Origin: Bryum argenteum
Lineage: Eukaryota; Streptophyta; Bryopsida; Bryales; Bryaceae
Assembly: GCA_037043015.1 (NCBI GenBank)
Contig: CM073328.1
Coordinates: 2,095,409-2,159,408 of the forward strand
Direction: 5' to 3'
DNA length: 64,000 nucleotides
Shown: piece after piece, positions 16,861 to 40,991 of the stretch
How positions within the stretch are numbered: position 1 is the first letter of the stretch
Layout of the letters: each line of letters opens with the position of its first letter
Translations under genes and position numbers: made by a program
The notes under the pieces: generated by a model
Seen by the model: the letters and a program-made list of their open reading frames with translations, nothing else
The model's database searches: none
What the model was told of the DNA's origin: nothing

Positions 16861-17700
16861 AGCCATTGATGAAGCTCAGTTTTCAACTACAAAAATCGAG
16901 AAGAAGGAACAGGACCTTCTCTTATAACAAACGCACCAAATAATACGGAGTAAATGAATTGGGATGTTCAGCAAAAAACTTACCTAGACTCGACCGCTAG
17001 ACCACCAACAGACAGACGATCGACGCCGAGGGGACTCGAATCAGGGACCTGCCGACACAGTCGGCAACAACCAGTGCATTAGGCCGGTGCATCCTTACGG
17101 CAAACGCGCACTGACCACCACGGAACTTTTCTTCTATTTATAATGCTCGTGATCGTAAACTAGCGATCGCACGTAGTGTTCCTTTACCGCCATTGCCTTA
17201 CTGTCGATCGAAAGACGCCGCACTGAATTATTGTGTCAACACACCATAGAACGTTTCACTCCTGCAACAAGCGATGAATCCTCAGAGTCGTGGACCACCC
17301 GATATGATTAGAACCGAGGCTGCCTACTGCATCTGCATAGAATCCACATTATAATCAAGTCATTGTAGGTAAACTTTGAAGTCAGGTGGTTGATAATTTC
17401 TTACAGCCGATGATTGCTTGACCCTCTAACTTGGGGTCAGTGAGAGTCCTCGCTCATGCACTCCGATTACTGTAGCTGGGTTGACCTCCTCGTTTGAAGA
17501 AAGCGAAATATTCTCAGAGAGCACAATCCATCAAGCTCGTCCATGATCTGTGCGAAGTAGAATCACTTCCAAGACTCCATCCTGGTAGGAGCAGAGCAAC
17601 GGCATGACACTTTCGACTTCATCTTCGCGGGAGCAGAGCCACTACATGAGAAGAGAGTCGCTTATGACTTGAGAAGCCCAGTCACTCAAGTATCGTGGAC
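16861..17700 (-). repeat. Tandem duplication, left copy (contains SINE-like repeat)
   Basis: This block is repeated in diverged form at 18410-19240. Shared landmarks in the same order include the tRNA-like segment, caacacacca...gtttca, cagag-cgtgg, gatgatttctta/gataatttctta, gctcatgca-tc-gattact and cttcgact-catctt. The tRNA-like part reads on the minus strand. No protein frame is conserved between the two copies, which suggests a non-coding or transposon-derived unit. Confidence 0.7.
16893..17130 (-). mobile_element. tRNA-derived SINE-like repeat, copy 1
   Basis: Read on the minus strand, a head of about 120 bp has an A-box-like word (TAATGCACTGG), a perfect GCCGAC-TGT-GTCGGC hairpin in the anticodon-arm position (17051-17065) and a B-box-like TGATTCGAGTC (17033-17043). 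This order and spacing are those of a tRNA-related pol III promoter. It is not an intact tRNA: no acceptor stem pairs. A shared non-tRNA body continues to about 16893, with the word GGTCTAGCGGTCGAGTCTAG also found in copy 2. Confidence 0.65.
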
Positions 17701-18409
17701 GGATTAGATGTTGCTTTGCAGTCTCGATTACAACAACATAAGAAAATACAGTAGATATAAGTCTGGGTTGTCACCCCATAGGTTCGGCCGTTTGTCTTCT
17801 CTTTTTATTCAAAAATATAGTAAATTCTCATCAAGTGGAGTGAGGAACAATACGTGCAATAGGTCATCCGCATGTGTGACCCTCATTATTTCTCTTCCTC
17901 TGAGGAAAGGAGTTCATAAATCAGAAAAAGGAGCTAGCAGCTCGCTTGTGATTCATAAGCAGTTCAAATGAGATAAGAAATGATGAGAGTCATTCATGCG
18001 ATTGACCCTATTATTATTCCTCAATCCACATAATACGAAGCTACAGTAGTTTGCGGGTGAACCCGGCACCAATCCAACCTTTTGATGCGTGCGGTGTCGT
18101 ACTAACAGCGAAGTTAACCCATAGCATTGATCATGTCGACTTGACTCCGGAATCTTTCACTTCGAAAGGCACAGGTCGCTCAGATCGGAGCTGGAGGAAC
18201 CTACAAAACCAAATTGAAGTAGTGACTGTAAGAGTGCAATTGTCAGAGGCACGTCTCATTGCCACCTCCAATTGACAAGAACGATCTCAACTATCAGTAA
18301 CAATAGCCATATTCAGTTGGCTGGTTCTTTTTACAGCTTACAGGTGAACATGGCATCGAAGCTTTATATCTTTTCCTTCCTCTGCTGTGATATCGTATGA
18401 TATACAATC
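17701..18409. other. Spacer between the two copies of the tandem duplication
   Basis: No conserved coding frame or known RNA was recognised. Composition is more balanced than in the AT-rich blocks to the left. Confidence 0.5.
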
Positions 18410-19240: not shown

Positions 19241-22200
19241 CGTTACTGTCCTAGACATGACGAAGGAGATCAGGCGTTTCTCATCTTGAGGTGTCAGGAC
19301 AAAAACAAGGCTTTGTTGTCACCTTTCAGGGGTTGGCCCCATGCTCCTCCAATCCCTCGATTGAGTGTGCGTGGAACTTTCTTGCGATGAGATCGATGCA
19401 CGTGGTCGTTGCCTCATACTCGTAACCTTGACGCGGCCAGCCGGCCGTACCTGAAGTTGAACAAAAAAATAAAGGTGCATAAGTTAGGAAGGCTTTAATC
19501 AACAAATCCTCGCAAGGCCTTGAGAGCAGATTGAAGGAACACTCTTGAGGACTGTAATAAAATAGAATATTTGATAGTTTGGGTTAAAGCAGCACTTAGT
19601 ATTAGGTGCTCTCGAGTTCTAACCGTGTAACCTTGATAATGCCATCCTTGTTAATAAAACACCTTGATATTGTCACCGAAATTTTACATCGAAATTACGA
19701 GTTCCACATATATATATTTTTATTTATAATATCACATATTGCACAAATCTTCAAAATGTGACATTATCAAATATGTCGCACCTTGTTACATCATCAACGG
19801 ATGTGTGATATTATCTAGGTTAGACTGTATGGTCAGTTCTGTAAAGACTCCGTACTCCTGATCAACTTCACAAAAAATCAATAGTTGGCATATTAGTATA
19901 CTCGAACTTAAAGATGTGAGAGATTCTAAACTATCGTCATAACAAGCACATCTAGAGGAATGCCCAGACCCACAGAGACCATCGGTCCACGAAAGCCTGA
20001 ACGTTTGCTGAGGAGGTACTCTGATATCAAGATTATGCTTAAATAGTTTCAGATTGAGGTTCTATGACTGTACTTTATCAAAGAAGTAACGAATTCCAGC
20101 AGTCACGATACCGGCTTCGTAACAACATTTTTTGAAAAAGCCTCTGAATATCCTGCTTATTAGAACAGCCATGCTATTAACGACCATACGATATCAAAAG
20201 GCAGGTCATCGAGGTCAATACATGACAAGCTTTTGCTGTGGAGTACCTCTCGTTCATATCCTAGGGAAAATTGTGCAGAGACATATCCGCATGAACATCC
20301 GTGTCGAACATCAGGAATATCTGACAGTTGAATACGAAACAACAGATTGAATACAATAAGCAAGTCAGAAGGTCAATTTCCATGATCGTATTTCTGATAT
20401 ATTTCATTCAACTCACCTGGGCTTGGAAAATTCAGCATCCAGGACAGGAATTGAGTCGATCGTGCCATCACTTTCCTTCGTCTAGATTAGGTAGACAAGT
20501 CTCCAAGCGGCAATCGTATCACCTCCTTACGGCAACACTGTCAACGTCCGGTTCTCAACCCTTGCTGTAACCACACGCCTTGTTCTACGACATCCTGCAA
20601 CACTCGCTATCACAATCTTAGCATTCCAGGTTCCCGTAGTACATCTGCATGCAATTACTAAGGTCAACTTGGCGATGATACTTACTTTACTATGACCACG
20701 GTTGCACTGGTCGAATTCGTGATCTACAGCTCCAGATCTGTGGACGAAAGGCCGAAAGCTTTAGTGATTACAAGCCTGAGGTTGGCCACCCCCAATTTTC
20801 GGAGCCCCAAGTTGATCTCCGGCAATCAGAAAACAAGAACTGGAGGCAATAAGAAGGCGTGATAGAATCGTACACATACTAACCTTTATTTGCTGAAGTG
20901 TACACGACCAAATTGACTCCCAAAAATGAGCCAATCTCGAGATCTATATTTTCTTCGTTCGAAATGGTTCTTTGTTTTCTCAAGCCAAAAAAATCCCGCG
21001 TCAAGCTCGACATGGTCCAATTTTTCAGCAGTACTCCCGTTTCTCGAAAGCGCCGGAGCTCACCATCACCACAGCGTCAATAATGAAACAGAATCCGCAG
21101 TACCGAGTGATAACAAGATCCACTTTTGAAGATGTGTACCTCTCTTTTTACAGGTACTAGCAACTAACAAGTTCTGGTCAAGTTGCCTCTAGAAAATTTA
21201 GTAGCCACCACAAATCCATCCCCATCCTGTTCGTACTGTAACAGGTTTTAAGTTGAAAGGTCTTCGAAAAGAACAACTGCTTAGTACTAAAAGCTCCATG
21301 AAGACGTACAAACAGAACGTGTCAGCCTCAAAGCCAGACAAAATTCATGACTCCGGCAGCAGTGGTGCAGTGGAGTCGCAGCTTTGTATCGAATCGGGAG
21401 TGTAATGTCAATAACAAATTGTACCTCCAAATTCGTCTCCACCGCCGAGTTGAAGCAATGATTGGTGATGGAGCTTAATGCCAGTTGCTGGGAAAAGCTC
21501 ACCAATCTAACAGTCAAAAAGATCGCGCACTAATATTAGTATGCTCAGATATAAGCTTCATAATTACAGTATCTTTTATCTTTCTGTCACCAGATGCACT
21601 CTGTACGTAGCTAGATACAGACGAACTCGAACAAATGATTCGTCCACCTGACAGGGCTACACTGCTGCATGAGGACTACTGCCATCTCTTTGAATTGAAA
21701 AAAGTGAGCATCACAACGAAGGCAGCAATAAAAGCAGCCAAGCTGCGAAGGACCAACAACTTAAACTCAAACTCGAAAACCATGTCGCTTCAACGACCTT
21801 CTCTTGATTAATGCGCACGTGGCTTTGAGACTTGTGTGTACAGTGACGCTCTTTTGAATTAAAACTCATCTACAGTCCTACTCACTACATTGATATTGCT
21901 GCCCTACCTTCCGACTAGATCGAAGAAACTGATCGCAGTGCTAATATATTTGTGGAAGATATGGACGAGGACCAGGAGCTACGGAGTTGACGATCTTGTT
22001 GAGGTATCCGGACAGTGCTTGACATGATTGATTCGCGTCTGCAACCAACTCGAAGCCGTTGACAGCATGCACTCTCGGGACGGATCCGATTTATTCCATA
22101 GATCTTGCTCCTTCTGATGAAAATGAATGCTGGTCAGCTGTGAAGTTGTACGGATTGCACATTAGAAGAGCTCATTCAACCACAACTGTCACTTAACCGT

Positions 22201-22335: not shown

Positions 22336-22455
22336 ACATCCAAGCAGGTACTAGAAGAGAGAGAGACAGCCCAGTCCACCATAGACTACCGATACTAGTG
22401 GTGAACCGAAGCGGCTTGGGCTGTGCTCTCTCTCTTCAAGTCCCGGCTTGGATGT
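22336..22455 (-). ncRNA. MIR529: MIR529 precursor, cluster A, second hairpin
   Basis: A 120-nt stem-loop with arms starting ACATCCAAGC and ending GCTTGGATGT. On the minus strand the 5' arm carries the 21-nt mature miR529 at 22438-22418 (T followed by GAAGAGAGAGAGCACAGCCC). The opposite arm has the expected star but lacks one base against it, giving a one-nt bulge. The strand was chosen because the minus-strand reading aligns arm for arm with the plus-strand hairpin at 36193-36289 (AAGC-GGGACT before the mature, TCTAGT-CCT-CTTGGATGTGT after the star), and because only that strand carries an intact mature sequence. miR529 guides cleavage of SPL (SBP-box) mRNAs. Expression is not shown by sequence. 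Confidence 0.87.
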
Positions 22456-22527
22456 AATAAAGCTGCATCCCGCATGTCCGTCGCTGAGGCAGCATGATTC
22501 TCCGCCAGCGATGGACGTCGAAGACCA

Positions 22528-22632
22528 TTACACCCACTCTGGCGTAGGAAGAGAGGGGGTACAGCCCATTCCAACTACGATTTGGTCCTTGGGCTGTACT
22601 CTCTCTCTTCTTAACCCAGCTGTGGGTGTGAA
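22528..22632 (-). ncRNA. MIR529: MIR529 precursor, cluster A, first hairpin
   Basis: A 105-nt stem-loop, TTACACCCAC at one base and GTGGGTGTGAA at the other. Read on the minus strand, mature miR529 occupies 22611-22591 on the 5' arm (A followed by GAAGAGAGAGAGTACAGCCC). The star arm holds two A:C mismatches (CCCCC replacing CTCTC). It is the paralogue of the hairpin at 36001-36095: both share the GTACAGCCC variant and the loop-side word TTGGAATGGGCTGTAC. It lies 72 nt from the second hairpin of the cluster, close enough for a single primary transcript. Confidence 0.87.
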
Positions 22633-24221
22633 CATTGTGAATCTTGCTTCGTTTCTTAGGATGACGCTGAAGCTTACGCACGATCGTGAGAGAATCTCCA
22701 ACATCAGCTCACAGAGCTCAGAGACATGAGGTTATGATAATGCAGACACCAGGATACATGGTCGCTCAACACCTGACCAATTCTTCGCAGCAAACCTGCA
22801 GGAATCGTATGCACATGATCGTCAATGGAACTTTCATACAGAAACTTCAATTAAACAAGGTACGCTCATGAATTGAATGCAAACATGATGGGGCAAGGTG
22901 ATTGGACTACTCCCTGAACATAAGGAATGCATATATATCGAAGGTCGTGAAAGATAGAAGACCGGCTTCTACCTTCGATTGTTCCGATACCTGAAGACTT
23001 GATCGAAAGTCCTTCATGATCGGCTGTCATGTCATGCCAATTGCCCCCTCGGTGTACTTGCGCTACGCCAGAGTTACCAAAAGCAAAGGATTGAAAGCAG
23101 CGCAGCTTGTGCCAAGACCAAAGGAAACTGAGAATCTGCTCAGACTTGAAGCAAGATAACCGTACACAATCATGGAGAAAAGTCCGTACATCTCAACGCC
23201 CGGGTTCCTCGTTCCGGGAGCGATCGATTCAGAAGCTTGCTTGCGATTTTGCAAACGCACCCAGAAGGGGACAAAGCCGAAGCTTTATTTTCCTCCATCA
23301 TAACATACCATTGATTCAGCATGGCCTCGCAAGTGGGTGGAGTTTCAAAAGCACCAGAGTAATTTAGGACAGACTGTACTCAAAAATGCAGTTTGGAGAA
23401 AAGTCAGTACATCTCAAGCGCGCAGCATCCACGTTTCAAGAAACGATCGTTTCAGAAGTTTAACTTGAGATGCTCCACACGCACCCACATGACGCGTACA
23501 AGGAGAGGACAAAACCGAACGTTGATTTTCTTCCATCGTCCCACATCACCAGTTCAGCATGGAATTTCGAAACGGCCGACCGGCTGCCGAAAGTAAGCCT
23601 GACGCGCCGCAGCAACGGCCCCAGCATCTTCATCCTGGGTTGCACTTGCGTAGACCATGAGGCTGAAAACCAGCTCCAAAAACCGCGTCCCTTCAGAAAC
23701 GTCACGATGGCGGAAGCAGTCAGAGTTCAGTGGGCAGAGGCTTCTGTTCTGAAGAAGAAACGGGGGATTTATCGTCCTCTTCCATTGACAGGACGACGAA
23801 GGAGCCCGGAAAGACGGCCAATCTGTGGAAAGAAGGGCAGTCGTTTTCTTCTGCGGGCAGGGAACCGAAACATTCCAATGTTGGAAAGTTCCCTTTGACT
23901 TGCAACATTATCAACAGCTGAGTACTGTACAGTGGGGTACAGAAATAATTCGAACTGAATTTGTAGGCAGTTTTTGAAAAAACTTCGAAATGTGCCTACA
24001 TACTCAAAAATGATCGGAATTGCAATCCGTAAAGGGTGTTGGAACCACGTTAGAGTGTTTTACACTATCATGGCAAAAAATTGCTTCTTTTTTGTGCAAT
24101 TGTTCAAAGAACTAAAACTCTACATGTTCCATCCACAATTGACCATTGTCGCTTTGTGCTTCAATTACAATGTTCATTTTCACTTGCAAAATTGATATGA
24201 GTGCCATAAGTTGTTCTGCAG
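22633..24221. other. Upstream region of MIR529 cluster A
   Basis: On the minus strand this is the 5' side of cluster A, where its primary transcript and promoter should lie. A TATA-like gatatatatgc (minus) occurs near 22930-22940 but cannot be confirmed as a promoter. A diverged tandem duplication (23171-23330 and 23391-23570) lies here. Open frames in this stretch are unlike any protein family I recognise. Confidence 0.4.
23171..23570. repeat. Diverged tandem duplication of about 220 bp
   Basis: Blocks starting at about 23171 and 23391 share, in order, ggagaaaagtc-gtacatctcaa, gatcg-ttcagaag, acgcaccca, ggacaaa-ccgaa, attttc-tccatc and ttcagcatgg. Identity is moderate, with small indels, so the duplication is old. 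Confidence 0.75.
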
Positions 24222-24299
24222 ATGAGCGTGTACTGTTACTACTGCAGAGTATGCTTGCCGCGCCTCCAGTTACTTGCCGCGCCTACAGTACACGCTCAT
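24222..24299. repeat. Short hairpin with perfect 15-bp arms
   Basis: ATGAGCGTGTACTGT at 24222-24236 is exactly complementary to ACAGTACACGCTCAT at 24285-24299, with a 48-nt loop. Inside the loop the word cttgccgcgcct occurs twice. It could be a small fold-back element or a structured RNA; no microRNA family is recognised. Confidence 0.8.
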
Positions 24300-25475
24300 G
24301 GAAACTGTTGGCGAACGGTGATGCTCAAGCCACAGCCTACCCCTGTACACGTACCAGCCAAACTGTAGGAGTACAATAAGTTAAAAACGCTTGGTTTTGG
24401 TGTTAAAGTAGAAGGCGTTTCCTCAGACCGCGCATCAGGCGCACAAAAGAGCCGGCAAAGTTTGCTGTAGAAAACTTGATCATTTGTTCAGAGGCTACAC
24501 TTGATGAGCGGATTGTAGCCCACATCCACTGGATCGTCATCCATCGCACACAAGCATTGAGGGAAGTCTTCTGCTCTGACTGGGTTTCAGTTCTTGTCGT
24601 TTGCCGGCCGTAAGTTGCTGTGCACGCTCCTGGCATGGGCCGGCGTCAATTTCATGCTATGATTCTTTCTCTACTCCCGTAGCTGCGATCGATCCCGGGC
24701 CAAGCCAGGGAGACGTGCTTGCATGATAGCATCGCTGGCTGCACGCCCCTTTCATTGTACCCCTTTCAGCTTGGTTCGTGAGCAGTGGAGAATGTACTGG
24801 ATTGTATGCGCCACTCTCCTAGTGGCCCCATTTCATTTTTCTGTTATTAATCTCCTTAATGGCCACCATCTTTGGAGAATGTTTCACTTGTTTATTTGAA
24901 GGAGACCGCTTACATGTGTTGACTTCATTGCCTGCGCCTATGCGCACGAGAAATTAGTAGGCGCTCATGGACGCCAACACGGCAGAATTAAATACCATAA
25001 TGTACTAACTACTTGGGATTTCGTACCTGCTGACAGGTCACTTCATAAGCGCAGTTCAGGCAAAAAGGCAAAAAACTATAGAGGTGGCACCTTCTCATTG
25101 ACCGAGGGAACTGTGGTTATTTCCTATGCATCCACTTTGTTGGCATTATGGACCTCAACAATTTGCACTGTTGATCTTGAAAATCAACGGTCTTCATTTG
25201 TTGTTTTGAAAGAAGGAAGGGGGAGGGGTTTTTATACCGTGTTATTTTTTCACGGGCAATTAGTAAGGGGTAAATGACTCTTTTTCAAAAAAAAAAAATG
25301 GGACGATGACGATTGAGTTATTCCCAAGTTTATGCAATTTTTTGAATTTTTTTTGGAGAGTAAATGAACTTTTTTTGGATTTTTGAACTTTTTTTTTAAC
25401 ATGCGGGGAGGGATAAATTAGTTTTTCTTAAAAGTTTTGAATTGCGGTTATGCTAGGCAGCTAGGGAACTTAAAA

Positions 25476-25576
25476 GGAGCCCCAGGTTATGGAAAATATC
25501 CACTTGGGCACCTCCCTCGCCGCTCCCCCAGCTAGGAAGGATGCCCCACTGGTTATTTTCCATAACCAGTGGCTCC
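25476..25576. mobile_element. 101-bp fold-back element (MITE-like)
   Basis: Two arms of about 35 bp face each other: GGAGCCCCAGGTTATGGAAA at the left and, read from the right end inward, GGAGCCACTGGTTATGGAAA, each continuing to a GGGCA word. About 30 bp separates them. It is too small to encode anything. No convincing target duplication is visible. Confidence 0.7.
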
Positions 25577-28500
25577 TTGTGCGTTACGTAGTCAACATCA
25601 TGTTTTACTTTCTATTGTCTATAACAGAGGGGTATCCTAAACTTGAAATTTCGTGAAGAGCTATGATGAGTCATAAATTTATGTATATACCACATCAAAA
25701 ATTGTAAAGTACCACATACTTGATTAGAATTGATTGTCACTTCAAATTAATAAAGTCTTATTTTATAATTGTTAATCATAAAGTCATTATATTTGAGTTA
25801 CATCAAAGACTTCAAAGATATATGTGCTTAATAGTACTTTAGGATGATTTAAATTTAAGGAGTGAACTCTTGTTTCATGGCTTTTTTGATATATTTAATC
25901 ATGATTATAAATGTCACTCAACAAAATATCCTTTATACTAACCGAAGAACAAGCATATCTATGAGCAAAGTCAAAAATAAGCACAATGAATGTACATAGG
26001 TGTTGCAATACAAGAAATATATGGAAACTACGACAACAAGTCAACAACTTTGTATGAAGCAAGCACTCCATCAGGATTGACCTTTGTTCAAATACTTTTG
26101 TGCAAAAATCAAAATGAATATTATTGCCTCATATATTTTAAAACCCTTGATGTTAGAATTTGTTCATGAAGACTAACTTTAGTCATAATTGTGATTAAAT
26201 TACACTTATCTCAAACTAGTTGCTTTGAACAAAGCTAGTCGTTTTCACTTGTTTTTCTATGTAGTGCTATTCACCCCGAAACAACCATGGTGTTTTAGAA
26301 ACTCCAAAATATCGGAACTGCAATATTTTACCACCTTGTTAAATTTTGAGCAACTTACAATGTTTTGGAACTTTCAACCGTATGACTTTAAAGATAAGTA
26401 CAACCAAAGGTTGTGGTAAACCTTTATATCTTCACCATTTGGGAGATCGTAACGTTCAAAGTCCATGTTCCTCTTTTATTGGCCAACTTTGCTCTTGCTT
26501 TAATTTGTAAGTTTAGAAGGTTGTTGTTGTGAAATTGGTATGGGTTTCAAATTGGGTCACTATAAATTTTGAGTTGGAATTTGGTAATGAACATGCTTTT
26601 CTAAATTTAAAGTGCCCTACTTGGTGTTGAAAACAAAAAAATGCTCCTCAAGCCTCAAAAATGTATATCCAATATTTTTATGAATTTAATGATTTGAGGT
26701 AACTTTGAAATAGAGGTTAAAAACTTTCTAGTTATATCTTTACTGCAATATGTTTCGTTGTTAGTAACATTCCTATTTTAGTAAAAATGATGAAAATTAA
26801 GTATCGAGTGGATAGGTTTGGTTGTAGTAGACAAGCGGTGTAAGTTACTATTGTACCCTAGTGAAATTCATCTAAACTCTATATTGTTCCAACCTATTCT
26901 GCCAAAAAACACATTAATAATTACAGTGTCATATATGTAAATGAAAATAAACAATTAATATATTAACCTCTAAAGAACCAAAAGTGGTTTTTAGAAATTT
27001 GGGTAGCTTAGAAGAAGAAGTTAAAAATAATATTTTTGCCTAAGGTTTTTTTGCAGGGTGCTCCCTAATTCCCTATACGACAAGGTGTATGTGCAAGAAT
27101 TTGCAAAGTCAAATTCTGTATTAAGAATTCTATAACACAAAATTATTTTTTAAGCCCAGATAGAGCAGTAACATAAGAACTAAAAAGATAAGAAATTATT
27201 GTTTTTATAAAGTACTTGAGCAGTCGTAAGTTTTTGACTACACGACTACTCGAGTATTCACAAATTCAAATTTAATCTCTTCTAAATTTTTTGAGGTCAA
27301 TCTTAAAAATTTACAAGAGCGAGCTTCAAAGTTTCGCAAAAAAAAAAATTGTTTCAACTTTGAACGTTTTCATCTCACATACAGTAGTGATCCAAGAGTT
27401 GAAATCTGACATGATGTTTGTACTCGTACTTACTTTGAAGAAATTACAGTTAGATATATATCATAGACAGAAGATTATGTTTTTTGGGTTAGATTCCAAA
27501 TTGGATCTAGTTTATGTGATACATACTTTAAATCCATGCAAGATGTGAGAAATACATGGTGTGAGTTTTAGTGCATGGAATCTAGTTTCAAAGTCTTTTC
27601 TTTGTAGAATTTTAGGCAGTTTTCAACATTATAAACTCAATACTTTTGGAAATATTTTTTTCTAATGGTTTATTTCTTTGTACAAGGGTATTATTGAGAT
27701 GAAGGTAAACAACTTAATAGTTGGTGATTCTTTATTGCAATAACCTTATTGGTAAACTTTCACTCTGCAGTGAAAATGATGAAATTTTGTGATTTTCATT
27801 GCATACTAATAGTTTGTGTTGTTGCAAATCTATGAGGCTTCTTGATTCAAGAATTGGCCCATGTGAACAACAATAAGCAATTCTACAAAATAGTACAATT
27901 AAAATCTCAATGAATTCTCTTTATTCTCATCTATTATTATTTTTTGAAAATGTGTTTTTTTGACTAGAAACACACTTGGACATTCAAGGATTAAAGCAAT
28001 TAGAAGAAAATCAAAGTTTATTATTAGCTATAAAATTTTAGTGCATTTTGAGTCAAAAAATTTATTCTTGTATCTTTTAACCAAATCAAGAAGTGAAAGA
28101 AAATATAGAAGAAATATTTACAAATAAATAATCATTTATCTCAAAGCTTTTCAATCACGTTCAAACTTTGGCATGTTTTCATATAAAGCGTCGATATTGA
28201 TTTTAGTCAACCCATAATATAATAGTTGGTAACTTGGTATTGTATTAGTTGAAAAAACTTTCAAATAAAAAATCTTAAATGCTACAACAATACATGGATT
28301 TTGACTTGTATACTTTATAGATCTTTTTGAACTAGTATAATGTATTCCGAAATTTACATTCACATACTTTACGCAAGATGGGAGCCGATGACAAAATTGT
28401 CAAATCTCACTTTATACAAGCTTGAATGAAGTAAATAAACTGAGTAAGACATTATGGGTGATCCAACCATCTACATCTTACAAGAATTTACATAAAGCAC

Positions 28501-29699
28501 TATTCTTGAGTTTTCTTTGCACCCCATCTCAGCATTACTATTAGAAAGTGTAACAATTTCTTTTGACACTGATATCCTTATCCAAACAGCTTGGTAAAAT
28601 TTTTGGTAGAACTCGTGTTCTATGGTGCATGTTTGTTCCACTTGCTAACCACAACGTTCCAAGTTCAAGAAGTCTTCACAAAATCTCAGTCAGCAAAGCA
28701 GACAGGACCAACAAATGGTGTGTAAGCATTCTGTTATTTATAGCATGCTCCGATGGTTGATTTCCACCGCAAGCTGAGAAAAGTCAACTAATTAGATCAA
28801 ACATTCCCAAAAGGCTCAGTGTAAAACGGGACTAAAAATGGTGTTGAAAAGTAGCCCAACTGGCGCCTGAGGTTTCTAATTTTACAAGCGAAGCCGGCAC
28901 CTACGGTAGAGGTAGTGGCGCATACTATACGGTTCAAAGTAATATTGTAGAGCTCACATCTACCTGGAAGCTCGATCGAGGTCCCCGCTCACAGCAGCAG
29001 CCAGCATTGATATCATGCAGGCACGTCTGCATACTCCCCAGCTCTCAGCTAAATTTAGCGCTATAAGCAGCTAGCTAGCTCGTCACCGGCCACACAAGCG
29101 ATGAAAAACATTGTGTGTACAGTAGAAGATGAGCCAGGGCAGAGTGAGGATAATCTTCAGTGAGAGTGTTCGCGGAAGCAATGAAAGCATCTTCAATCGT
29201 GAGATAGAACACTTTCGCACGGTTTTGGGTTCTGAGGGAGTTAGTAACAAGGAGGAGGAACTGACGCGGCATGGGTGCGCTTTGCGCGACATCGATGAGT
29301 CGCCCATGCCTTGAGCATGCGAGGCAATTTACAGAAGCAACGACAAGAACGGAAACCCAGATGAAAGCAGGCCAAAAGACTTGCCTGATTTCGTGCAACG
29401 GATGAGGATCTAGTGGATGTCATTCATGGCGCTGCCATAAGCGACTCCTGAAGAGTAGCGCTGCCATGACCAGGGCGACAGATCCAATCACTCCGCCTGC
29501 AAATATTCAATAGCAGCAAACTTTGCCGGCACTTTTGATCGCCTGATGTGGAGGCGTTAAGCTCGGAAGAAAGGAACTCCTGCACCAGAAGCATCCAGGC
29601 TAGTCTTTTGATCGATAATTCCGAGGCCTCGACTGCACTGGTACTCCCTCTCCAGTGCCAGGTTTTACAATTATATTAGTCTACTGTTGTTTATTTTCC

Positions 29700-29781
29700 T
29701 TGATGTGGAAGTAAAATGCTGGACAGCCAACCAAGGAAGGTTGATGTGGAAGTAAAATGCTGGACAGCCAGGCAAGGAAGG
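29700..29781. repeat. 41-bp tandem duplication
   Basis: The unit beginning ttgatgtggaagtaaaatgc spans 29700-29740 and is repeated at 29741-29781 with two changes near its end. Confidence 0.95.
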
Positions 29782-30946
29782 CGACTTACTTGGGCGAGAA
29801 GTTCAAAAGCCTAGACTGTGTAACAAGAAGCAACTTTTTGTCATGTCAGCGGCAGACAACCCTACATACCTGAAGTTACAGCACCTGACTTTAGTCATGG
29901 CTAGTAAAATGGTGAAAATGGAAGGAAGTCCAAGGATTAGTTAGATATTCTGAGGATGAAATTCAAGTGACTGTTTACTTGTGGTCGGTTTGCACCTGGA
30001 GGTGGAGGTAGGTGTTGGAAAAACACTTACCCTAACTATCTAGGTCTCGATTCCGGTAAGAAGTCTACTTCAGGCACTACATGTAGAGGAACTGTGAGCA
30101 AATTCTATTCTGTTTACTGTATCTTCCAGATGACCAATTTGGAAAATTATACATGATGATAGGAACATCGCTTCAAATACTGAGCTTTCTTAATTGTGCA
30201 CAACGTTCATTTGAGAATATAATTGATCATACCGGTAATTACAAATTTTGCATTTCAAATCCATGATCGTAGAAATACAACATTTGACTCGGATAAACTA
30301 ATGAATGTTTTGTTTGTTGGGCGAATGGCAGTTTTTGAACCTTCATTTCCAATCTGAAACCTTGAAATACTCACCATCTGATTTTAAACCGGTCACCCAT
30401 GTAATCACAAAACACCATGATACTGCTCCTAGTGGAAAGTGTGGCTGAATTTCCTCCATGCTACTACAGTAGTGGAAAGTACCCACCAAACTACCCACAC
30501 TTTTCACTAAGAATGTCTCGTTCCATTAAACTTGATAAAATGAGAAATTAAGAGTAGTGGAAATGTCCGCTACTGTGTGGTGTATATCTTCTTCACCACT
30601 CGATTAGAAGTAACTAAAACCCCAGTTATGTTAAACTGTTGAAAGTGATAATCAGCAAAAACGGCGGGTTTAAAGTTTTCCAAAAACATGCAAGAACGAA
30701 GAATTTGGGTCATTCATAGCCAACAGCTTCAATCACTGGCTTCAATGTTTTCAAGACAACCATCTTGAAAGGTGATGATAAATCATGAAGGTGGTGAGAT
30801 TAAGAAAACATTGTTAACCCGTAAAGTGAAAAGCCTTAAAAATTGCCAAAAACCTTCAATTTGCCCTCTTTTAGAGCAATGTGAAAATTTTCAACTTTTG
30901 GCTGCTTTTCAAGTATATAACCATAAGATCTTGTACCTAACTAGTT

Positions 30947-31048
30947 CATGTTCCTTACCATTTGCAAGATCGTAATGTTTAAAGTTGAAAAACAAGTCAT
31001 GTTCCTTACCATTTGCAACATCGTAATGTTTAAAGTTGAAAAACAAGT
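30947..31048. repeat. 51-bp tandem duplication
   Basis: The unit beginning catgttccttaccatttgca spans 30947-30997 and is repeated at 30998-31048 with a single clear change (aagatcg versus aacatcg). It belongs to the dispersed repeat also seen near 5650 and 26430. Confidence 0.95.
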
Positions 31049-31399
31049 TTTTAAAGCTTATTTTGTCTATTAGGGACAACAGTTTTTTGGAGGGTCAAAA
31101 CTATTTTTTAGATTTTATTTACATTAAGACTCTTTGATTCTTGTCACTACTTGAGTTGGGAGTATCTTAAAAAAATTTGGAATTTTCAAGGCATTTAGGT
31201 GTACAAAAAGTGAATTCTAAGTGAAGGAGGTAAGAAAAAACACAAATACAATTCAATTTTTGATTCCAAAATTGCTATACGAATTAATAAAACCACCACC
31301 ATCCTGGGCTGCGCATGTTGCGTTATCCTCATATAGGACTGTTGAATTTATAGGAGTGTTGAGGTGTGTACTCGTTATTAGTAATCTGTGGAGATTGCA

Positions 31400-33110
31400 A
31401 AGCTAGACAGCTTCTTGCGTAGTCTCATGAAAAGAGTGCAAATATCTGAGGGATATGTTTGATAGTACGCCAATCAGAAAGATGAATAATCTAAAAACGA
31501 AGGCAATGAGGAGTCTTTCCCAACAACTTCATATCGAAGCAAGCGGTTAGTAAACTAACAACCTTCTTGCATGCTATTGGGGTACCCACTAGATTTATGT
31601 CATCAACATAAAGGACGACTATGGCAAAATTAGGAGACTCTCTAAGGATGAAAATACTAGATAAACTTTGATAATATTGAAACTTATGGTGAAGCAAGAA
31701 AGAACATGAATGAGAGTACCACATTTGTTCACATTGTTTCTAGCCATATAAGACACGTTGAAAATTCACACTCAAATAGGAATTAGATGTGTATGCTATG
31801 ATAGTTTGAGAGAGAAAATCAGGAGGGAGTTTTATATAAAGTTCACTATCTAATTGACTATATAAGTAGGTTGTGATACAACATCAAGTGATTGTGTTTC
31901 AAACATGTATAATTGGACTACCATCCCTACTTCCCTAGAGATATCGAAAGAGATTGGCTCATAAGTCATAACTTGAATTTTTTTAATGAAAAGCCTCAAC
32001 CTGCCTATGTTTAGAATGTTCAAATAGGAAATTATAGGTTATAAAATTAGGAAATTATAGGTTAAAAAAATTCTAGTAACTTTACAATAGTCTTTAAAAT
32101 CATGACTTAAATTTTTGTGCATTGTCCATGCGCAAGAATTTCACTCGGTATTCTAGATAGTTGGTTCTGAACTCTATTAGGAGTGCTACATTTTTAGAGA
32201 GAAGATTGATGGAACCACAAACATTCCTTCAAAGCCTGTAGAGTGGTGAAGGGAGCATTTGCGGAAGTTTTCACTGTGAAGGTCTAATGATAAGTTTTCC
32301 TTCAGCAAAGGCCTTGCACACTTCAAGCTTATATGCATCACTAAGACAGAGCTCGCGACCTATTAGAACATGTATCATCTGTCTGAACATGGTCACTCTT
32401 GCGTGACCCATCCTCAAGTACTAAAGTTTAACCTTGTTGAGACTATAGCGATTGAATATGTTGAATGGTCTTGATGACTTGTATTTAGACAAGAGATTGG
32501 AATCTCATAAAAACAATTAGCTTTGCAGCTTGTTATAGTAAGCACTTGTCTTCTTAAATGAGGTTTACAATCTCCTCATCGTCCTTGATCGATTAAAGTC
32601 AGGGCGTGATTTCCATGTGCCCCTCGAGATCCCAAAAGGTGATGAGACTTTGGTGTGAACGTGGTATTGGAGCATGTGAGGATGACGCCTCCGAAGAGCT
32701 TCACTCTTACTCGGCCCTCACAAAATGTCATCTTTTATTTTTCGGTGACTCTACTAAGCTCACAAGTATACCATGCTTCTAAATCAAGTCTCAAAAAGTC
32801 AAAGTAGCGTACATCACCCATGATTGTGTGAGTTGATCTACTATCCAACAAAGCCATGTCTCTATCAGACATTTCCAACTGGATGTAAGTGCTCAAAGAC
32901 TCCACAATATAGTTTTTAAGGTCAGTACTTAAGAGGTGAGGCATCTAAGAAGTGTTACTTTCTTTGACAACTTTCAATAGCTCATGGAGTTTTTATACAA
33001 CTTCTCCATATGTGCTTCGGCTCGGCACTCTAAATCTTCTGTCTAACTTTGGCACATGAAGCACACGGAAGTGTCTAACTTGGATTGTAAAGCCAATATG
33101 TGTCAAACAT
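31400..33110 (-). mobile_element. Decayed Ty1/copia retrotransposon fragment (gag to reverse transcriptase)
   Basis: Read on the minus strand, pieces of a copia polyprotein occur in the right order. They are a zinc-knuckle/linker remnant (about 33045-32980), a protease-like LLDSRSTHTI (near 32850-32825), an integrase piece with RTNYLEYRVKFLRMDNAQKF (about 32180-32115), and reverse transcriptase from LDSELYIKLPPDFLSQ (about 31850) through LYG-KQ-EQMWYS to the catalytic FAIVVLYVDDINLVGTP (about 31630-31575) and FDMKLLGKT. Stop codons, frameshifts and missing stretches (most of integrase, and RNase H) show that it is dead. No flanking LTR pair was identified. Confidence 0.85.
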
Positions 33111-34900
33111 ACACCAGAAGAGCGAGAGTCTGAGTTAATTAGAAGGCTTATTGAGTTGATGTTTGGTCCACTGTAAGAGACCGTTTGATTCGTTCATTAC
33201 AGCTCCAATCATTGCCCCTTCTTGTTGGTATTTCCGCTGCGTTGGTTTTCGGGGCAGTTTCGCTAAAGTCGTTATTCTTTGGCACCAGCTAATGTTGTTG
33301 TTCACAGAGTAATAGAAACTATCTGCGATTGCTTCAAGTTTTTAGATTCATAGTCTGATACATTTATGCTAGCAATGCAAATAGAGTGGGGAAAGTTGAC
33401 AAAGTCTTGTCAATTATCTCCTCAGTCCTCAATGATCAATATGTTTTCTCCACCTATAGGACAAATCTAAACAGTTTTCCGTCTCCAGTTTCCTGTCACC
33501 AGTTAAAAAACTCTTAAAACGACCTAAACAACAATTTTGTAATATTGAGACAAATTTTCCAAGTCTTTTTTTAATTTTACGGAATTTTTTACTCTCGAAG
33601 CGAGAATGTTTGTTGATTGCCATCGAAACTTTCCCCCAATGAATCGTGAACAACTCGCATAAACATTGTCCAAGTTGAGTACTGAATCCAGCCACTAATT
33701 GCTAATGAACCGGGGTTGAGTGAAGAATCCCTTCAGATGGTTTTTGCACCAAGAATGTCGAGGAGGTCTGGAGCCTCGAGCATGAAAGTTGTGAAATTCT
33801 CAATATGTGTAGAAAGCCTCTTTTTAATAAATCTATATTTAAGGCAATGGTTTGTTGTGTCTAGTTCCATTTGTTTTATATCAATATGAACGGGGTCGGC
33901 TAGTTGAATTGCGGTGCGTGAGGTTTCGTTCAAGGTGGGTAATATTTGTGATGTAGACAACGATTGGATCACCGGTCGGACTTGCAGACCTCGAGAAAAT
34001 AAATTTCAAAGTATTTTTGGCCCCATAAAATATCAGAATTATTAATATAATCTAATCTTAGTTAAAAGAGTAGAAAAACAATTCCAACCCAACCGCAAAG
34101 AGCGTTTAGAGTCTTAGAAGACTTACTAAAAAGGTGGACCTCCAAAACCCATCTTCTTAGATGATAGTAGGGACGCAGATGGTAACAAGAACGGGTACAA
34201 CAACAAGGACGAGGATATAGATGGCTATGAATGTTTAGATGAGTGTGGCAACGCTGCCTAAGCGAGCTAGTTGACCATGAAAAGAAGTTTTGAATGACGG
34301 TGGGACCTTCCTAGGGCAAGGATACCTCTGGAAAACTTGAATGTCCTTCCGCATGTCAACATTCGATTGTGAACCTTTTTACAAGTGATGGAAAGGGACC
34401 TTCTACCCTTATACTATTGTTTGTTTAAACATGTCTATTGGTTCTAATTTTCTTACTCCCACCACATACCCTGAAAGAGGTTCCACTGTTGACAGACGCC
34501 AGCGTTTTATGCTTCTTAGAAACGAGCAGGCCAGGCTATTTGTAGCACATACTACCTAGCATGGATAAAAGTGACAGATGGCTGCATGCAGCTTCGTCCA
34601 GGGCTTTCACGAGCAGATCGTCCCAGAAACAGTAGGCATGGCAAAGGCGTCATGTTTTCCATTTCAAGTGCTAGTTGCAAATGGAGGCGCGGAAGGCGTT
34701 TCCACCAGATTGCATGAGTCCAGCCAGCCATGAGCCATCCAGCTATCTCTTGTCCATCACGGCCATCTTCGGATCGGAGGCTGCATAGTCCACGGCTGCG
34801 GCCCTTTACATGGGCGCGAAACAACGGGAAGACAGACGTGACCGGCGGCACCAACCGGCGGTGAAAAGGCTCGTGGTACGGTGACGGCAGCCCGCTGCCG
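33111..34900. other. Region between the copia remnant and the cluster B promoter
   Basis: Minus-strand frames at 33429-33695 and 33733-33972 may be eroded gag-side sequence of the copia element but match nothing I recognise. From about 34500 base composition becomes more GC-rich, as expected for a promoter-proximal region. Confidence 0.4.
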
Positions 34901-34907
34901 TATATAA
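34901..34907 (+). promoter_or_regulatory. TATA box, candidate promoter of MIR529 cluster B
   Basis: TATATAA sits in a GC-rich setting (cagcccgctgccg before it), followed about 30 bp later by a pyrimidine-rich leader (tttctttctcccttctttc). This is a classical plant pol II core promoter layout. The nearest downstream plus-strand feature is the MIR529 pair 1.1 kb away; no protein-coding gene intervenes. The link to MIR529 is inferred from position. Confidence 0.5.
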
Positions 34908-34934
34908 CAGGGTGCCCGTCCTTGAAAGATATCA

Positions 34935-36000
34935 GTTTTCTTTCTCCCTTCTTTCAGCCTCCCTCCCTACCCTGCCGTCCTGGTGAAGAAGAAGAGCTGG
35001 GATGAGGAATCTGCCTTCTCCATTTCTTGCTCTTTGCACTTGTCCTTCTCTGACAACCCTGGCCCCCAGCACTCTCTGACTGCTCGCTATCTTCATCCCT
35101 CTGCTGCAGCTGCTCGCGCCACCATCGGTACATCCTTGGAGTAAGACGGTTTTTTTTAAAGCTAATTTTCGTTGTCATGGTCAAAGTGCTGCTTCAGGTT
35201 AAGATGCCGTTGCTGCTGCGACGGATCATGCCTGCTTTCGGTAGGTTTCAACAGCGCCATCATGAAATGGGAGTGTGACGAAGGAAGTATCGGACTTCCC
35301 CTTTTCTCGCAACTGTTTTCATCCTCTTCTACGCGTTGAGGACGTAATCTCGTGATTTGTGTGCGAACATGGAACCATTCGTGCACGCTCAAAAGGTTAC
35401 ATATCCGGCAGACGGGGTTGCTTAAAGTGTACTGAGGTTCGTGTTAACTGCGTTTTGAAGTTTCATGAGGTGTGTACTGCTTTACTTGCCCAGGTGAGCA
35501 ACATATGTTAGTGCTAATTATGAGCCAGTTTTGGCCGTCACGCCTGTTGATCTGTCAGTGTGTAAAGCGCTACCTGTTCCGCGTTTCTCAAGGTCTCACT
35601 CCTTTACTCGTAATGGCGTACGAAATGGGTGACAACATGATCTTACAGGCCGACAGCCGTTATAGAAAGTTGTTTACACAAGGCTGATCATCCTCTTGAA
35701 ATCCTCCTCGAGTTTTGCACAATCGCAAGTACCAAGATTTCTACTTTTCACAGACTTCGATGCTGGGTTTGACCAGCTGCTGGCTTGTACCGCTGCAGTA
35801 GTCGATTTGTTGAGGACCTACCTGAGCCTGTACAAATGGAAATGCTTCTCTCGAAGTCCCGAAATGCGGCGCTTTCGTTTCGATAAGTACCACCAAACCA
35901 TTTGTAACTTTTCTCACTGTGATGTGTGCGGTGCAGGCGCACACTGGAAACGATTTCGAAGGGCTCTGGAGCTATCAATCATGATGTGGTTTAATTTCTC
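34935..36000 (+). other. Probable 5' portion of the MIR529 cluster B primary transcript
   Basis: Balanced composition with no conserved protein frame. The short open frames here differ from any known family. If the TATA box at 34901 is used, transcription would begin near 34932 and cross this interval into the two hairpins; splice sites cannot be decided from sequence. Confidence 0.4.
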
Positions 36001-36095
36001 ACTTACGCTGGGGTCAGAAGAGAGAGAGTACAGCCCACTTGCCAATCCAAGTTGGAATGGGCTGTACTCTCTCTCCTCTTATGCCGGCGTAGGTG
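36001..36095 (+). ncRNA. MIR529: MIR529 precursor, cluster B, first hairpin
   Basis: Stem-loop with mature miR529 on the 5' arm at 36016-36036 (A followed by GAAGAGAGAGAGTACAGCCC). The star is at about 36058-36079 (TGGGCTGTACTCTCTCTCCT), pairing almost perfectly across a loop of about 20 nt. The lower stem pairs ACTTACGCTGGGG with the GCCGGCGTAGGT side. The mature form is identical to that of the cluster A hairpin at 22528-22632, and the loop-proximal TTGGAATGGGCTGTAC word is shared, so the two are paralogues. The predicted role is repression of SPL mRNAs. Confidence 0.88.
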
Positions 36096-36192
36096 TTTCA
36101 CGCTCCGAAGCCCCGCAAGCCTGCTGAATGTTTATCAACGGCGAGAAAGTATCCTGCTGTCATCGACCCACATGCGTGAAGGACCTTTACTG

Positions 36193-36289
36193 CATGCAAG
36201 CTGGGACTCGAAGAGAGAGAGCACAGCCCAAGCTGCCTCGCCATGAGAGATTGGGCTGAGCTCTCTCTCTTCTAGTGCCTACTTGGATG
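36193..36289 (+). ncRNA. MIR529: MIR529 precursor, cluster B, second hairpin
   Basis: Mature miR529 lies on the 5' arm at 36209-36229 (C followed by GAAGAGAGAGAGCACAGCCC). The star side at about 36251-36272 reads TTGGGCTGAGCTCTCTCTCT, one mismatch from perfect pairing. The lower stem pairs CATGCAAGCTGGGACT with the AGTGCCTACTTGGATG side. It begins about 98 nt after the first hairpin of the cluster, consistent with one dicistronic precursor. Its paralogue is the minus-strand hairpin at 22336-22455. Confidence 0.88.
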
Positions 36290-39200
36290 TGTCACCTCAC
36301 GTTCATTACGACCACGCACGATAAGGCAAACGTCTCCCACAGAAGTGGTATCGTCTTTATTGGTTAAGATGAACTAGCTAGAAAGTTTTCCATCACTTTT
36401 GAAGTTTCCATTGGCTTGTTCACTTCCACCAGCAGGCGAATAACCTGAACAACATAACTGGGTGAAATGTCGTAATTTACGTTGATCATGTTGGTTTTAA
36501 CTCACCCTTGTTCCATGTCTATTTTTTCATTCTATCGATCGTTCGAATCGAGGACAGACGCTCAAATCATCGAGGCAGCAATCGATCTCGCAAGCTAGAT
36601 GATTGTTGCAACACGATTTTGTGTTTTCTGATTTGGTTGCTGTGGCGGTACACAAGCAGACTAAGGACATTATTGGGTGCATGCGTTCAGCGCGCGAGTT
36701 AACTCTAGTCACGCCTAGTTATTTGACTAGTAGAGTAACGGCCTTCAGCGTTGTATTCGATACCTGGTTTCAACTTGCCTGGTACCCTCTGGCGGCGATT
36801 GAGAAGTGCCCCAGCTACATTTTGACGTACGAAGGACATTGCAATTAGTTGTTTTAAGTTCTATGTACCGTAGTTCATCTTTGTAAATGGAGCAGGAGCT
36901 TGACAAGGTGATCGTCGCCTGCATGGAAGACCATGACGAGGAGCGTGTTCCGATCTTTCTGACATCTCGTGCACGTCAATGTTCGAAGAACATTGGCTTA
37001 GCAACTGCATGTTGTGAGGATGAGTATGTTGACATTGTTTTACAGTGGCTGTCTCTGAAGTCATGTGCCTCGATTGTGAATTAATGATGCTGAGTTCTGC
37101 CTGGTTGTACACCGAGTAAACCATTTAGTAAATGGCAAGACGTCGGTGACTTGTGATCGGAGCTCAGTAATGTTGAGTGTTCTGCTTTACTGTGCAACTC
37201 GCTTGTTGCCTACGACTGAAGCATGGAGTTTGTGCAGACAGTTTACTAACTGATATGGTAGAGTAGGTGCGCCGCTGCTTTGCATGCTCAATCATGGACT
37301 TGCGTGCGCCACTAGAACAGGTCCTTTTGAATTTCGCGGCACTATCCTTTGGCACTTGTCTCTGATCAGAAGTGTCGCAGTAATGAGAAGTAAAGTGGAG
37401 TCATATTTACAATCATGCATATTTACAATCATGCATACTACGCTTGACGTACATACAGGATTGGTGGTTGTAACTCTTTAGTTAGACGTTCACAGCAAAT
37501 TTGCTACAGCTCTTTTACTGAATAGAGATGCGGTTTGTCGCACTAGTTGTTTCTGTCGATCATTTGGTCTACTGTTGCCATTACATAAAGTACACCATCA
37601 TGCGGTGTGTTTTGGCGCAGCATAATTACTTCTGATCGGAAGTGCGGAGGATAGGCAAGAGCTGATTTTGGTGAGGTGACATGCGGTTTTTCAATCGATA
37701 GCCATGCACGTCATTTTTTTGTCAGTAATTTCAAGCTGTAAAACAGGGTTTAGTGTAAAATGCGGGGACTGATATTTTGACATATTCAAGCGTGTACCTA
37801 GGGAGAGGTATTGGGTGATCATGTGAATGGCGGAATTAGGAGTTCAGGGTAGGAGATATTTTCTTCCGAAATTACTAGAAACATGCGAATATGGCTCATA
37901 TGGGACTGGAAAGGCCGAGGGTACACTGACGTTCTCAAGGGAGGTGATACCACAAAATGTGGTGGCTATAGTACATGTGATACAGATTCTGGCATGGTGA
38001 AGTAGACTTGGAATTATACCCATCTTAAGGGAACAGGCTATCCAGTGGTTAAGCATGAAGTGACGTACAGTAAACGATTCGTAGAGTCGCACGCGCAAGT
38101 GCGCCATGGGGGAAAGAATCTTCTCTTCAATTATTCGATTCGATCTTTCCCGATTCAACTGCACATCCTTTTACCGTTTACTTTTCCTTTCTTTTTTAAT
38201 CAAACAATGCATTGTATCTACACTCTACTTTTTCGCTCACTCGAATTCATCTGCTTTTCGCCGCGCGACACTCTGGATTATTCAGTGATATCCATGAAAT
38301 TGGGGTTTAGTTACAAGTTCTTTGCCACGTAATAGTAAAAATGGGAATTGTATGCTACTAGTGGGACGTAATATACAGCAGACTTGAGTGTCTGCATTCT
38401 TAAAACAACGAGTTTGGAAGAACTGAGATTGTTCCGAAAGCGATGAACAACGTCAGAGTAACTTAGCAGAAGTAAAAGAGCTAGATTTCAAACCGAATGA
38501 GAGCGATTCAGTTGCGGTTTATCTGACCACTTGGTGACAATCAAATTGATTTACTGATCCTCTAAATCATGTAAAGTGTTGCTTTGCAGCTTTAAAGGAA
38601 GCCTTCAGAATGATTGGGGGCCAGAATAGATCTCTGGTACCGCTTCGGATCCTGTGCCTCTGCGTTAATGGAGATATGTCACGCACTACTGCGGAGAATA
38701 GACGTGCATGAAGAAGACATGCTAGTGTGGTGGCGTACTCGACTCTGACGTTGTCACTTCTGGGCCCACCTACTCAGGTGCCACTTGGCCGTAGTGTTGT
38801 TCATAGGAATTCTGAACTTCGCTGTATGGTACTTTCCATCCTGCAATTTGCGTCTTTACCAGTCTTAGTTGTTTTGAGCATGTTGAAAAGTTCTGCGCTT
38901 TGAATCATATCCAACTAAGAATCAAAGTATATTCATCTCAACTACCGGTAATGTCCAAGCAGCTATTGTCATGCTGATATACCTCTGTACAATCTTCACC
39001 AGGATATCAACGGGCGTTTTACAGTCAAGAGCTTGTCAATATCGTACCTCGATGACTCGTTGTCTGGTTACGTGTTTATTCGTTCGGTCGTTTATGGACT
39101 GGCTATTCTATTAAGCTGCATAGTCAGTGGATGTTCCTTTAGAATGTTGTTGCTAACCCGACATCACGTGCAGGAATTTGGTACTTCATCGTTTGATATA

Positions 39201-40224
39201 CGAGTAATTAATCTTTCTTCTTATTCTTACATATCACAGTACCTGCCCAGGCTTTTGCAGAATGATGGTCTCCACAGTGCTTGTTGTAGTGATATAATTC
39301 ATCATATCTCTTTCTTTTTTAAGAATATGAACTATTTTTTTTCCTGAAGCTGATAAGTTGCATGGAGACTGTACATGGATGATCGTATTTGGTTCGTCAC
39401 GACTTAGCTCTAGAGCACCTAACACTTAGTGGTTCTTTTTTTAGTAAATTTCGAAGTAATCCATTAGTTCTTTTGAGTAGACGTAGTTCTCGATTGTGTC
39501 CCTCTTATATACTCTACTTAATTTGACGAGGCCGTGCTGTATATAGGCCTTCCTGATTCATGCAACTTCATTATGTTGACTGTTAACCTTCAGGTTCCGC
39601 GGGCTGCGTCAAGGTAACGCCCACTTGTATCGATTTCACCTCAAGAGAGTCTTGCGATCACTCAGTTGAGCTTCTTTTATAAAAAAAGCTGCATCCATCA
39701 ATGATCATATATATCATTGCAAATGTTCATGGCACAGGATGGACTAGCTCAAAGCCTTGCTTACAAGTAAGCTGAAAAAGAATTGACCAACTGAATGTGG
39801 CTGTCGTAACAAAGTGATAAGATCGTGCTTGTAAAGTAGAAATGCGACTGCTTATGACAATTGCACTCATACGGTCAGTAGTTCAGTGTGGTATTGCAGG
39901 GTTTTTCAACGAGGTGCGTCTTCCCGCGTCGATCCGGAGTCGAACTGTCGAAGTACACATGGTGTGAGAGTTTAATTTCGAGTTGTTTAACACGACAAAT
40001 ATCGAAAAGGTTGACTCGGGGCAACTTCAAAAGATGTCCTCGTTTCATTATATGTGGAATGATGGAGAGATGATGAATCAGTTATTCGCATGAATGATCC
40101 TCATTAAATCCTTTCCCGTATAGTATAATTTATAAATCACAAGACATCCATTTTTTGTAATTTATGAATTCGTCTATGTAGAATATGTCAAATAATGAGC
40201 GTTACACATGCGAATGACTGAGGA

Positions 40225-40226
<2 letters not shown>
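36290..40226. other. Region downstream of MIR529 cluster B
   Basis: Balanced composition, no supportable protein-coding gene. Its 5' part probably belongs to the 3' end of the MIR529 primary transcript. A 17-bp duplication (catatttacaatcatgc) occurs near 37417-37434. Nothing else is recognised. Confidence 0.45.

Positions 40227-40315
<89 letters not shown>
40227..40315. repeat. (AT)n microsatellite, about 89 bp
   Basis: A perfect alternating AT tract, the second long one in the window. Confidence 0.99.
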
Positions 40316-40317
<2 letters not shown>

Positions 40318-40991
40318 CTCTCACTTCATTTGATAAAAAGTTTCAAAATTTAAGATGGTCAATTTTAAGAAGGCGACTCATCAGCAGTTATATCTGCATT
40401 CTTATAAAACTCTGAAAAAGAAAGATATAATCCGGTCGTGATATCAACACCGAAAGCGCTTGCGTGGCCCTCGTGACTCTTTCCATGAGTCTCGTTTTAT
40501 GGAGTGCTCAGGCAATAAGATGCTTTGCTCCCACTAAGAAGTGACTCCAGTCCTTATCGATTATCGATAAGCTCGATCGAGTGTGCAATTATTGGAATGC
40601 GCTTTCAAAGGAGGATACTTCGCATTCCTTGACTCATAACTAGGTTGCATAAGCTTGGACTTCAACCCCAAGTTAGAGTGTCGGCAATCATTTGGCTGTA
40701 CGAGATCATCAACCACCTGTTTTCAAACTTTATATACAGTGGCAAGCTTCTGTATATATCTGTGACTAGATACAATCTATGCAGTTCCAGTTGGCTGCCT
40801 CATTGCATGCTGTACATTGAAGATCGTATCAGCCCTAAGAATTCGATTACTTCTTGCAGCACTTAAAACATACCATGGGTGCCAGACTCAACAATGAAGT
40901 GCGGGTGCGGCGGCTATCTATCTACAACAAGGCAAAAACGACAGTACATCGTGCGATCATGAGTTTACGACCACGATCATTGTGAATAGAT
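40316..40991. other. Intergenic DNA left of the third SINE-like copy
   Basis: No gene or element recognised. Confidence 0.5.

Follow-up and report, generated by a model that had tools for sequence, protein, structure and literature searches.

An inverted pair of two-hairpin MIR529 units in Bryum argenteum, probably derived from inverted duplication

We analysed a stretch of 64,000 nucleotides (nt) of the moss Bryum argenteum (C8:2095409-2159408 of a 258.8-Mb assembly in 25 contigs), hereafter called the window, which carries four hairpins of the microRNA (miRNA) family MIR529. A1 and A2 on the one hand, and B1 and B2 on the other, make up two collinear two-hairpin units that are divergently oriented. 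The inverted pair is real and, judged from its sequence, consists of MIR529 genes of a known type that look functional. Probably, A and B are two MIR529 genes that arose by inverted duplication of an older two-hairpin unit together with the DNA on both its sides.

The initial annotation had described four MIR529 hairpins in two pairs on opposite strands. Sequence, pattern and folds confirmed them at the positions below. A third unit of the same layout was found by its mature pattern on another contig.

22528..22630, minus strand: hairpin A1 (slot 1), with predicted miR529 AGAAGAGAGAGAGUACAGCCC at 22591-22611 minus
22336..22455, minus strand: hairpin A2 (slot 2), with predicted miR529 UGAAGAGAGAGAGCACAGCCC at 22418-22438 minus
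36000..36095, plus strand: hairpin B1 (slot 1), with predicted miR529 AGAAGAGAGAGAGUACAGCCC at 36016-36036
36193..36289, plus strand: hairpin B2 (slot 2), with predicted miR529 CGAAGAGAGAGAGCACAGCCC at 36209-36229
about C10:960292-960640: third two-hairpin unit (hairpins C1 and C2)

With up to three mismatches, a miR529 pattern matched the window seven times, compared with a mean of 0.01 in 100 shuffles. Four of these matches are the 5' arms on the strands listed, and the other three lie on the reverse strand, in arms of these stems. Relative to dinucleotide shuffles, the listed strands fold with z values of -8.75 (A1), -9.67 (A2), -10.52 (B1) and -8.06 (B2), and none of 200 shuffles folded as well as the real hairpin in any of the four cases. 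Individual folds and the consensus fold place the miRNA on the 5' arm of a foldback with an extensively paired star arm. In each unit, both hairpins are on the same strand, separated by hand-cut spacers of 67 nt (A), 94 nt (B) and 112 nt (C10 unit).

The identity of the four hairpins as miR529 is supported by the mature core, the folds and the best-scoring Rfam model. A 20-mer core, GAAGAGAGAGAGYACAGCCC, is intact on the 5' arm of all six hairpins. At its variable C/U site the partner base co-varies (C-G in three hairpins, U-A in two, a gap in one), and 10 of the 40 pairs predicted in the consensus fold have at least one two-sided change. The Rfam model of MIR529 (RF00908) was the best-scoring one at all four loci, with E values of 6.1e-10 to 1.5e-8 (42.3 to 47 bits) on the listed strands and of 1.1e-10 to 1.5e-8 (42.3 to 49.5 bits) over both strands. 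At the same loci the MIR156 model (RF00073, gathering score 62) obtained only 17.5 to 27.1 bits. A scan of the whole window at Rfam gathering thresholds returned no entry because the MIR529 matches, as seen in short scans, score below the cut-off; we treat that score as a curation threshold and not as a defining trait of MIR529. The mature core ends in CCC here and in CCU in the RF00908 consensus, as aligned. In the available portions of the respective papers, CGAAGAGAGAGAGCACAGCCC is given as rice miR529a (PMC4898717) and AGAAGAGAGAGAGCACAGCCC as a fern miR529 whose nearest relative is ppt-miR529d (PMC5426797). According to an excerpt of another paper, miR156 and miR529 are related in sequence and have overlapping sites in SPL transcripts (PMC8541648). 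The relatedness and the overlapping site hold for the present loci too, whereas they lack the UGACAG with which miR156 begins.

Evidence for the inversion comes mainly from the DNA around the units. We compared A-side and B-side DNA over 12 kb each way, each unit being oriented with its miRNA strand as plus, at an E cut-off of 0.01. This gave 16 same-strand matches and none in the reversed-sequence control. Sorted by hand, seven of the 16 fall on one collinear chain spanning 16999 to 41104, made of the unit itself (323 columns, 69% identity, E 1e-36), three upstream matches, one of them only 32 bp long (E 0.005), and three downstream matches. The longer blocks of the chain are as follows.

23530..23713, minus strand: upstream block 1, A side, 63% identical with gaps to 35119-35287 plus
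35119..35287, plus strand: upstream block 1, B side, partner of 23530-23713
24433..24640, minus strand: upstream block 2, A side, 64% identical with gaps to 29302-29548 plus
29302..29548, plus strand: upstream block 2, B side, partner of 24433-24640
20076..20334, minus strand: downstream block 1, A side, 68% identical to 38930-39198
38930..39198, plus strand: downstream block 1, B side, partner of 20076-20334
19356..19616, minus strand: downstream block 2, A side, 62% identical to 39408-39670
39408..39670, plus strand: downstream block 2, B side, partner of 19356-19616
16999..18401, minus strand: downstream block 3, A side, 60% identical over 1489 columns to 39704-41104; the outer limit detected
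39704..41104, plus strand: downstream block 3, B side, with a simple repeat (about 40227-40315) and, at its outer end, a dispersed repeat (about 40986-41106)

Six aligned flank pieces, two of which are parts of downstream block 3, showed no clear codon phase. The flank blocks were not detected near the C10 unit, either within 12 kb on each side or, by a stricter search, within 120 kb; in the blastn comparison of the window with the C10 region, the matches listed reach about 36.2 kb, and the B-side downstream blocks were judged by the other comparisons. The inverted duplication is supported because A and B share non-coding DNA, inverted and in the same order, that is undetected at C10, and it is larger than had been assumed. 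The initial annotation had also held that the sequence around the hairpins has largely diverged. This is true of the 300 nt on each side, where the similarity of A and B does not exceed that of shuffles; it does not hold farther out, where the collinear inverted blocks continue to 16999 and 41104.

The hairpins themselves record an older event. An exact search of the genome with GAAGAGAGAGAGYACAGCCC gave seven matches, four in the window and three in the C10 unit, one of the latter being the reverse-strand arm of C1. When up to two mismatches and a W at one site were allowed, 22 matches were found, compared with three for the backward control. Sorted by hand, 11 of them lie in the six hairpins (both strands), two are SPL sites and nine are elsewhere. 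None of these nine was accepted as a MIR529 gene; seven were folded locally and two are without a locus. Of the two folds obtained for L031, one has all 20 bases paired (-32 kcal/mol). Since the mature pattern was the query outside the window, the search would overlook any unit whose mature core has changed strongly; the pattern tests both strands alike, so that the query does not bias the comparison of sense and antisense arms.

In a tree of the six hairpins, A1, B1 and C1 separate from A2, B2 and C2 with a bootstrap of 97, and global alignment scores are 40 to 56 within a slot and 23 to 37 across slots. Because the hairpins group by slot, the two-hairpin unit existed before the inverted duplication took place; as read from these sequences, the tandem pair predates the divergence of the A, B and C units. 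The slot pairing that had been proposed was borne out, with the GUAC form in A1 and B1, the GCAC form in A2 and B2, and the lower stem AAGC-GGGACT common to A2 and B2. The word AGTTGGAATGGGCTGT beside the loop is indeed present in A1 and B1, but it is not specific to this pair because C1 has it too. Likewise, the paralogy of the slot-matched A and B hairpins is real without being unique: compared hairpin by hairpin, the C10 unit resembles A and B roughly as closely as these resemble each other. Since the slots were already distinct before the three units diverged, the inversion is not proven by similar hairpins alone. Over whole units, the scores are 143 bits for A/B, 88 for A/C and 105 for B/C.

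Several observations weigh against the inverted duplication of two MIR529 genes as set out above. Percent identity fails to separate the slots (86% for A1/A2 versus 81% for A1/B1), and on hairpins alone the grouping of A and B as closest relatives is weak, with bootstraps of 52 and 61. Among the nine same-strand matches off the chain, the shared interior accounts for three as mirror rows, self-palindromes for two and a cross-slot hairpin match for one; the remaining three comprise two off-diagonal repeats and one unexplained row. The opposite-strand comparison gave six rows, of which one belongs to the shared interior and three are hairpin matches. Because the other two (436 bp, 61%, E 1.6e-18; 204 bp, 61%, E 6e-4) are assigned to neither, the two sides also have some repeats in common that are not part of the chain. 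The downstream blocks contain or adjoin dispersed repeats, and positions 17201-17418 in downstream block 3 have an 87% copy at C4:19111767 as against about 67% identity to the inverted partner. The downstream part of the chain is softer evidence for this reason. Genome searches with both upstream A-side blocks returned only the blocks themselves and missed their known B-side partners, so that these searches exclude close copies only. As regards identity, no locus reaches the RF00908 gathering score of 75, and the covariation term contributes only -0.3 of the -57.65 kcal/mol of the consensus fold. A TATA-like word occurs once per unit within 1.5 kb upstream, at unlike positions, and was not used. 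Finally, the reverse strands of the four hairpins fold equally well (z -7.53 to -11.38), and at three of the four loci they have the higher Rfam score.

The repeats give some room to the idea that the units reached the region independently, for example by dispersed duplication, their opposite orientation being accidental and their shared flanks old repeats. The C10 unit, around which no gene in common was found in 120 kb, shows that such units can occur apart, the similarity of the hairpins alone does not set A and B apart from C, and background repeats common to the A and B sides do exist. We nevertheless regard independent arrival as distinctly unlikely, given the seven collinear inverted matches against none in the reversed control. 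In addition, the inter-hairpin spacer is alike in A and B (z 4.8), not in A and C (0.4) and weakly in B and C (2.1), and the U-A pair at the variable site is common to A1 and B1.

The behaviour of the reverse strands bears on another alternative, in which transcription proceeds mainly from the opposite strands, or from both, and near-palindromic stems give miR529-like products. The initial annotation had proposed RNA folding of each strand as a check; the listed strands do fold strongly, but folding cannot pick the strand because both strands fold and score alike. On its reverse strand C1 even has an exact GCAC-form core. It is the conservation of the 5' arm that favours the listed strands. 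Counted by hand over the six hairpins, the reverse-strand equivalents of the core carry about seven changes (A1 two, B1 one, C1 none, A2 one deletion, B2 one, C2 two), while the listed strands carry none. In the same hairpin order the raw script counts are 3, 2, 0, 5, 1 and 2; they are larger because the script allows for neither the variable site nor the A2 deletion. Transcription mainly from the opposite strands, or from both, thus appears very unlikely. A further possibility, compatible with the inverted duplication, is that decay affects some of the copies, with A1 or A2 the likeliest, and that these are now poorly processed. A1 has two mismatches within the miRNA duplex and the longest terminal branch in the hairpin tree, and A2 has a one-base deletion in its star arm. 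However, the mature arms of both are intact, and a few duplex mismatches are normal in plant precursors; we consider decay rather unlikely. An upstream non-coding block 0.7 to 1.1 kb from each unit is still recognisable, whereas the 300 nt beside the hairpins are not. That this block is a shared control element which has long kept both genes under common or partitioned regulation, with the stems also yielding antisense miR529, is a speculation that we think unlikely to hold.

Under the preferred reading of an inverted duplication, an older two-hairpin MIR529 unit and its flanking DNA would have been copied in inverted orientation to give two divergently transcribed units, and the shared DNA would then have been eroded by transposon insertion and many small insertions and deletions. 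From plant miRNA biology, each MIR529 gene is predicted to give a single primary transcript with two foldback precursors. DICER-LIKE1 would cut each hairpin to release a 21-nt miR529 from the 5' arm, and this miRNA would guide cleavage of the transcripts of SPL developmental regulators at the site coding for ALSLLS, which overlaps the miR156 site.

Candidate targets of this kind are present in the genome. A search for the SBP domain gave 19 matched pieces at 11 places (grouped by hand), and about 1.5 kb on each side of the match (roughly 3 kb) was scanned for sites. At two of the 11 places (C4:26673944 and C7:10925358), a site lies about 1.3 kb downstream (near C4:26675239 and C7:10926671), with one and two mismatches to miR529, respectively, counted against the GCAC form starting with A. 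Both sites have no mismatch to the miR156 site pattern and read RALSLLSSQ in frame. The other nine places contain no miR529 site with fewer than six mismatches in the roughly 3 kb, G-U being counted as a mismatch; among these, a place on C5 carries a site like that of miR156, with two mismatches. At position 14 the U-form (slot 1 of A and B) makes a G-U pair, while the C-form is fully paired. Position 17 is mismatched in all miR529 forms, and position 1 also in the slot 2 forms of A and B.

Some other sequences resemble miR529 sites or miR156 genes. L024:1501-1524 and L025:1501-1524 (around C2:27267499 and C3:1632886) share an exact 24-nt stretch with three mismatches to the miR529 site; these paralogous loci, with largely diverged surroundings, are possibly a further miR529 target family. 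In L023, a stretch like a miR529 site (C2:20849081-20849100, three mismatches) overlaps an open frame of 415 amino acids. In addition, TGACAGAAGAGAGTGAGCAC sequences, which we take to be miR156, mark candidate MIR156 genes at C2:27459594 and C3:3976302.

The two clusters had been described as separated by transposon DNA. This is correct in part: the interior contains some repeats and the remnant listed here, and only part of its 13.4 kb is so identified.

31578..31739, minus strand: RVT_2 fragment (Pfam E 7.1e-6, 26.2 bits versus a cut-off of 31.6), between the B-side upstream blocks

RVT_2 is presumably a Copia-type reverse transcriptase. The gap between the upstream blocks, which includes this remnant, measures 5.6 kb on the B side versus 0.7 kb on the A side, about 4.9 kb more. 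Among the matches listed, repeats near the C10 unit also correspond to other pieces of the interior. A 131-bp near-palindrome at 25461-25591, also in the interior, is perhaps a small inverted-repeat transposon. Pfam scans comprised 26 entries, 25 of them distinct, namely 23 of the 111 open frames of at least 85 amino acids and two shorter pieces at 31.3-31.7 kb; no Pfam family was found in 21 of the 25. Two minus-strand frames are probable exons of flanking protein genes, one at 46764-47135 with a Peptidase_M50B match (E 1.7e-7) and one at 1149-1535 with a CBS domain (E 2e-5). A match to EGF_MSP1_1 (E 0.0067, 16.9 bits versus a cut-off of 27) was taken as chance, and a 153-amino-acid frame across hairpin B1, with no family found, is probably chance as well. 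At the protein level, the rows above 45 bits (of 53) between the window and 120 kb around the C10 unit revealed no shared gene. These rows lie at about 5.6-6.9, 7.8-8.2, 13.0 and 31.3-31.9 kb of the window and were not counted as shared genes because the same places also match as repeats.

The layout of each unit has a precedent in Physcomitrella patens. The accessible text of one study mentions seven MIR529 genes in that moss, three pairs of them less than 100 nt apart, as data not shown (PMC4409300). Like the present units, these pairs are two miR529 hairpins close together; unlike the present locus, no inverted pair of such units was found described for P. patens in the excerpts available. 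Excerpts of further papers put the polycistronic share of P. patens miRNAs at 25% (PMC9291395, which attributes this to Axtell 2007) and state that the TAS6 loci of P. patens carry miR156 and miR529 sites (PMC3565333). In open-licence literature, as far as its excerpts go, we found no account of MIR529 units arranged as an inverted pair, a weak negative; there, "inverted duplication" refers to the origin of MIR genes from their target genes or stands in a reference title. Both miR529 and the pairing of two hairpins in one unit were known before; newly described are mainly the inverted arrangement and how far the duplication extends, together with the C10 unit and the relative timing of events.

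Most likely, the effect of the duplication is a higher dosage of one miRNA, and a putative separate regulation of the two units is possible. The locus leaves the understanding of how miR529 works unchanged. It points to non-coding blocks as candidates for promoter tests, and it gives an order of events, first the tandem pair and then the copies on C8 and C10, inverted on C8, that may be traced across moss genomes.

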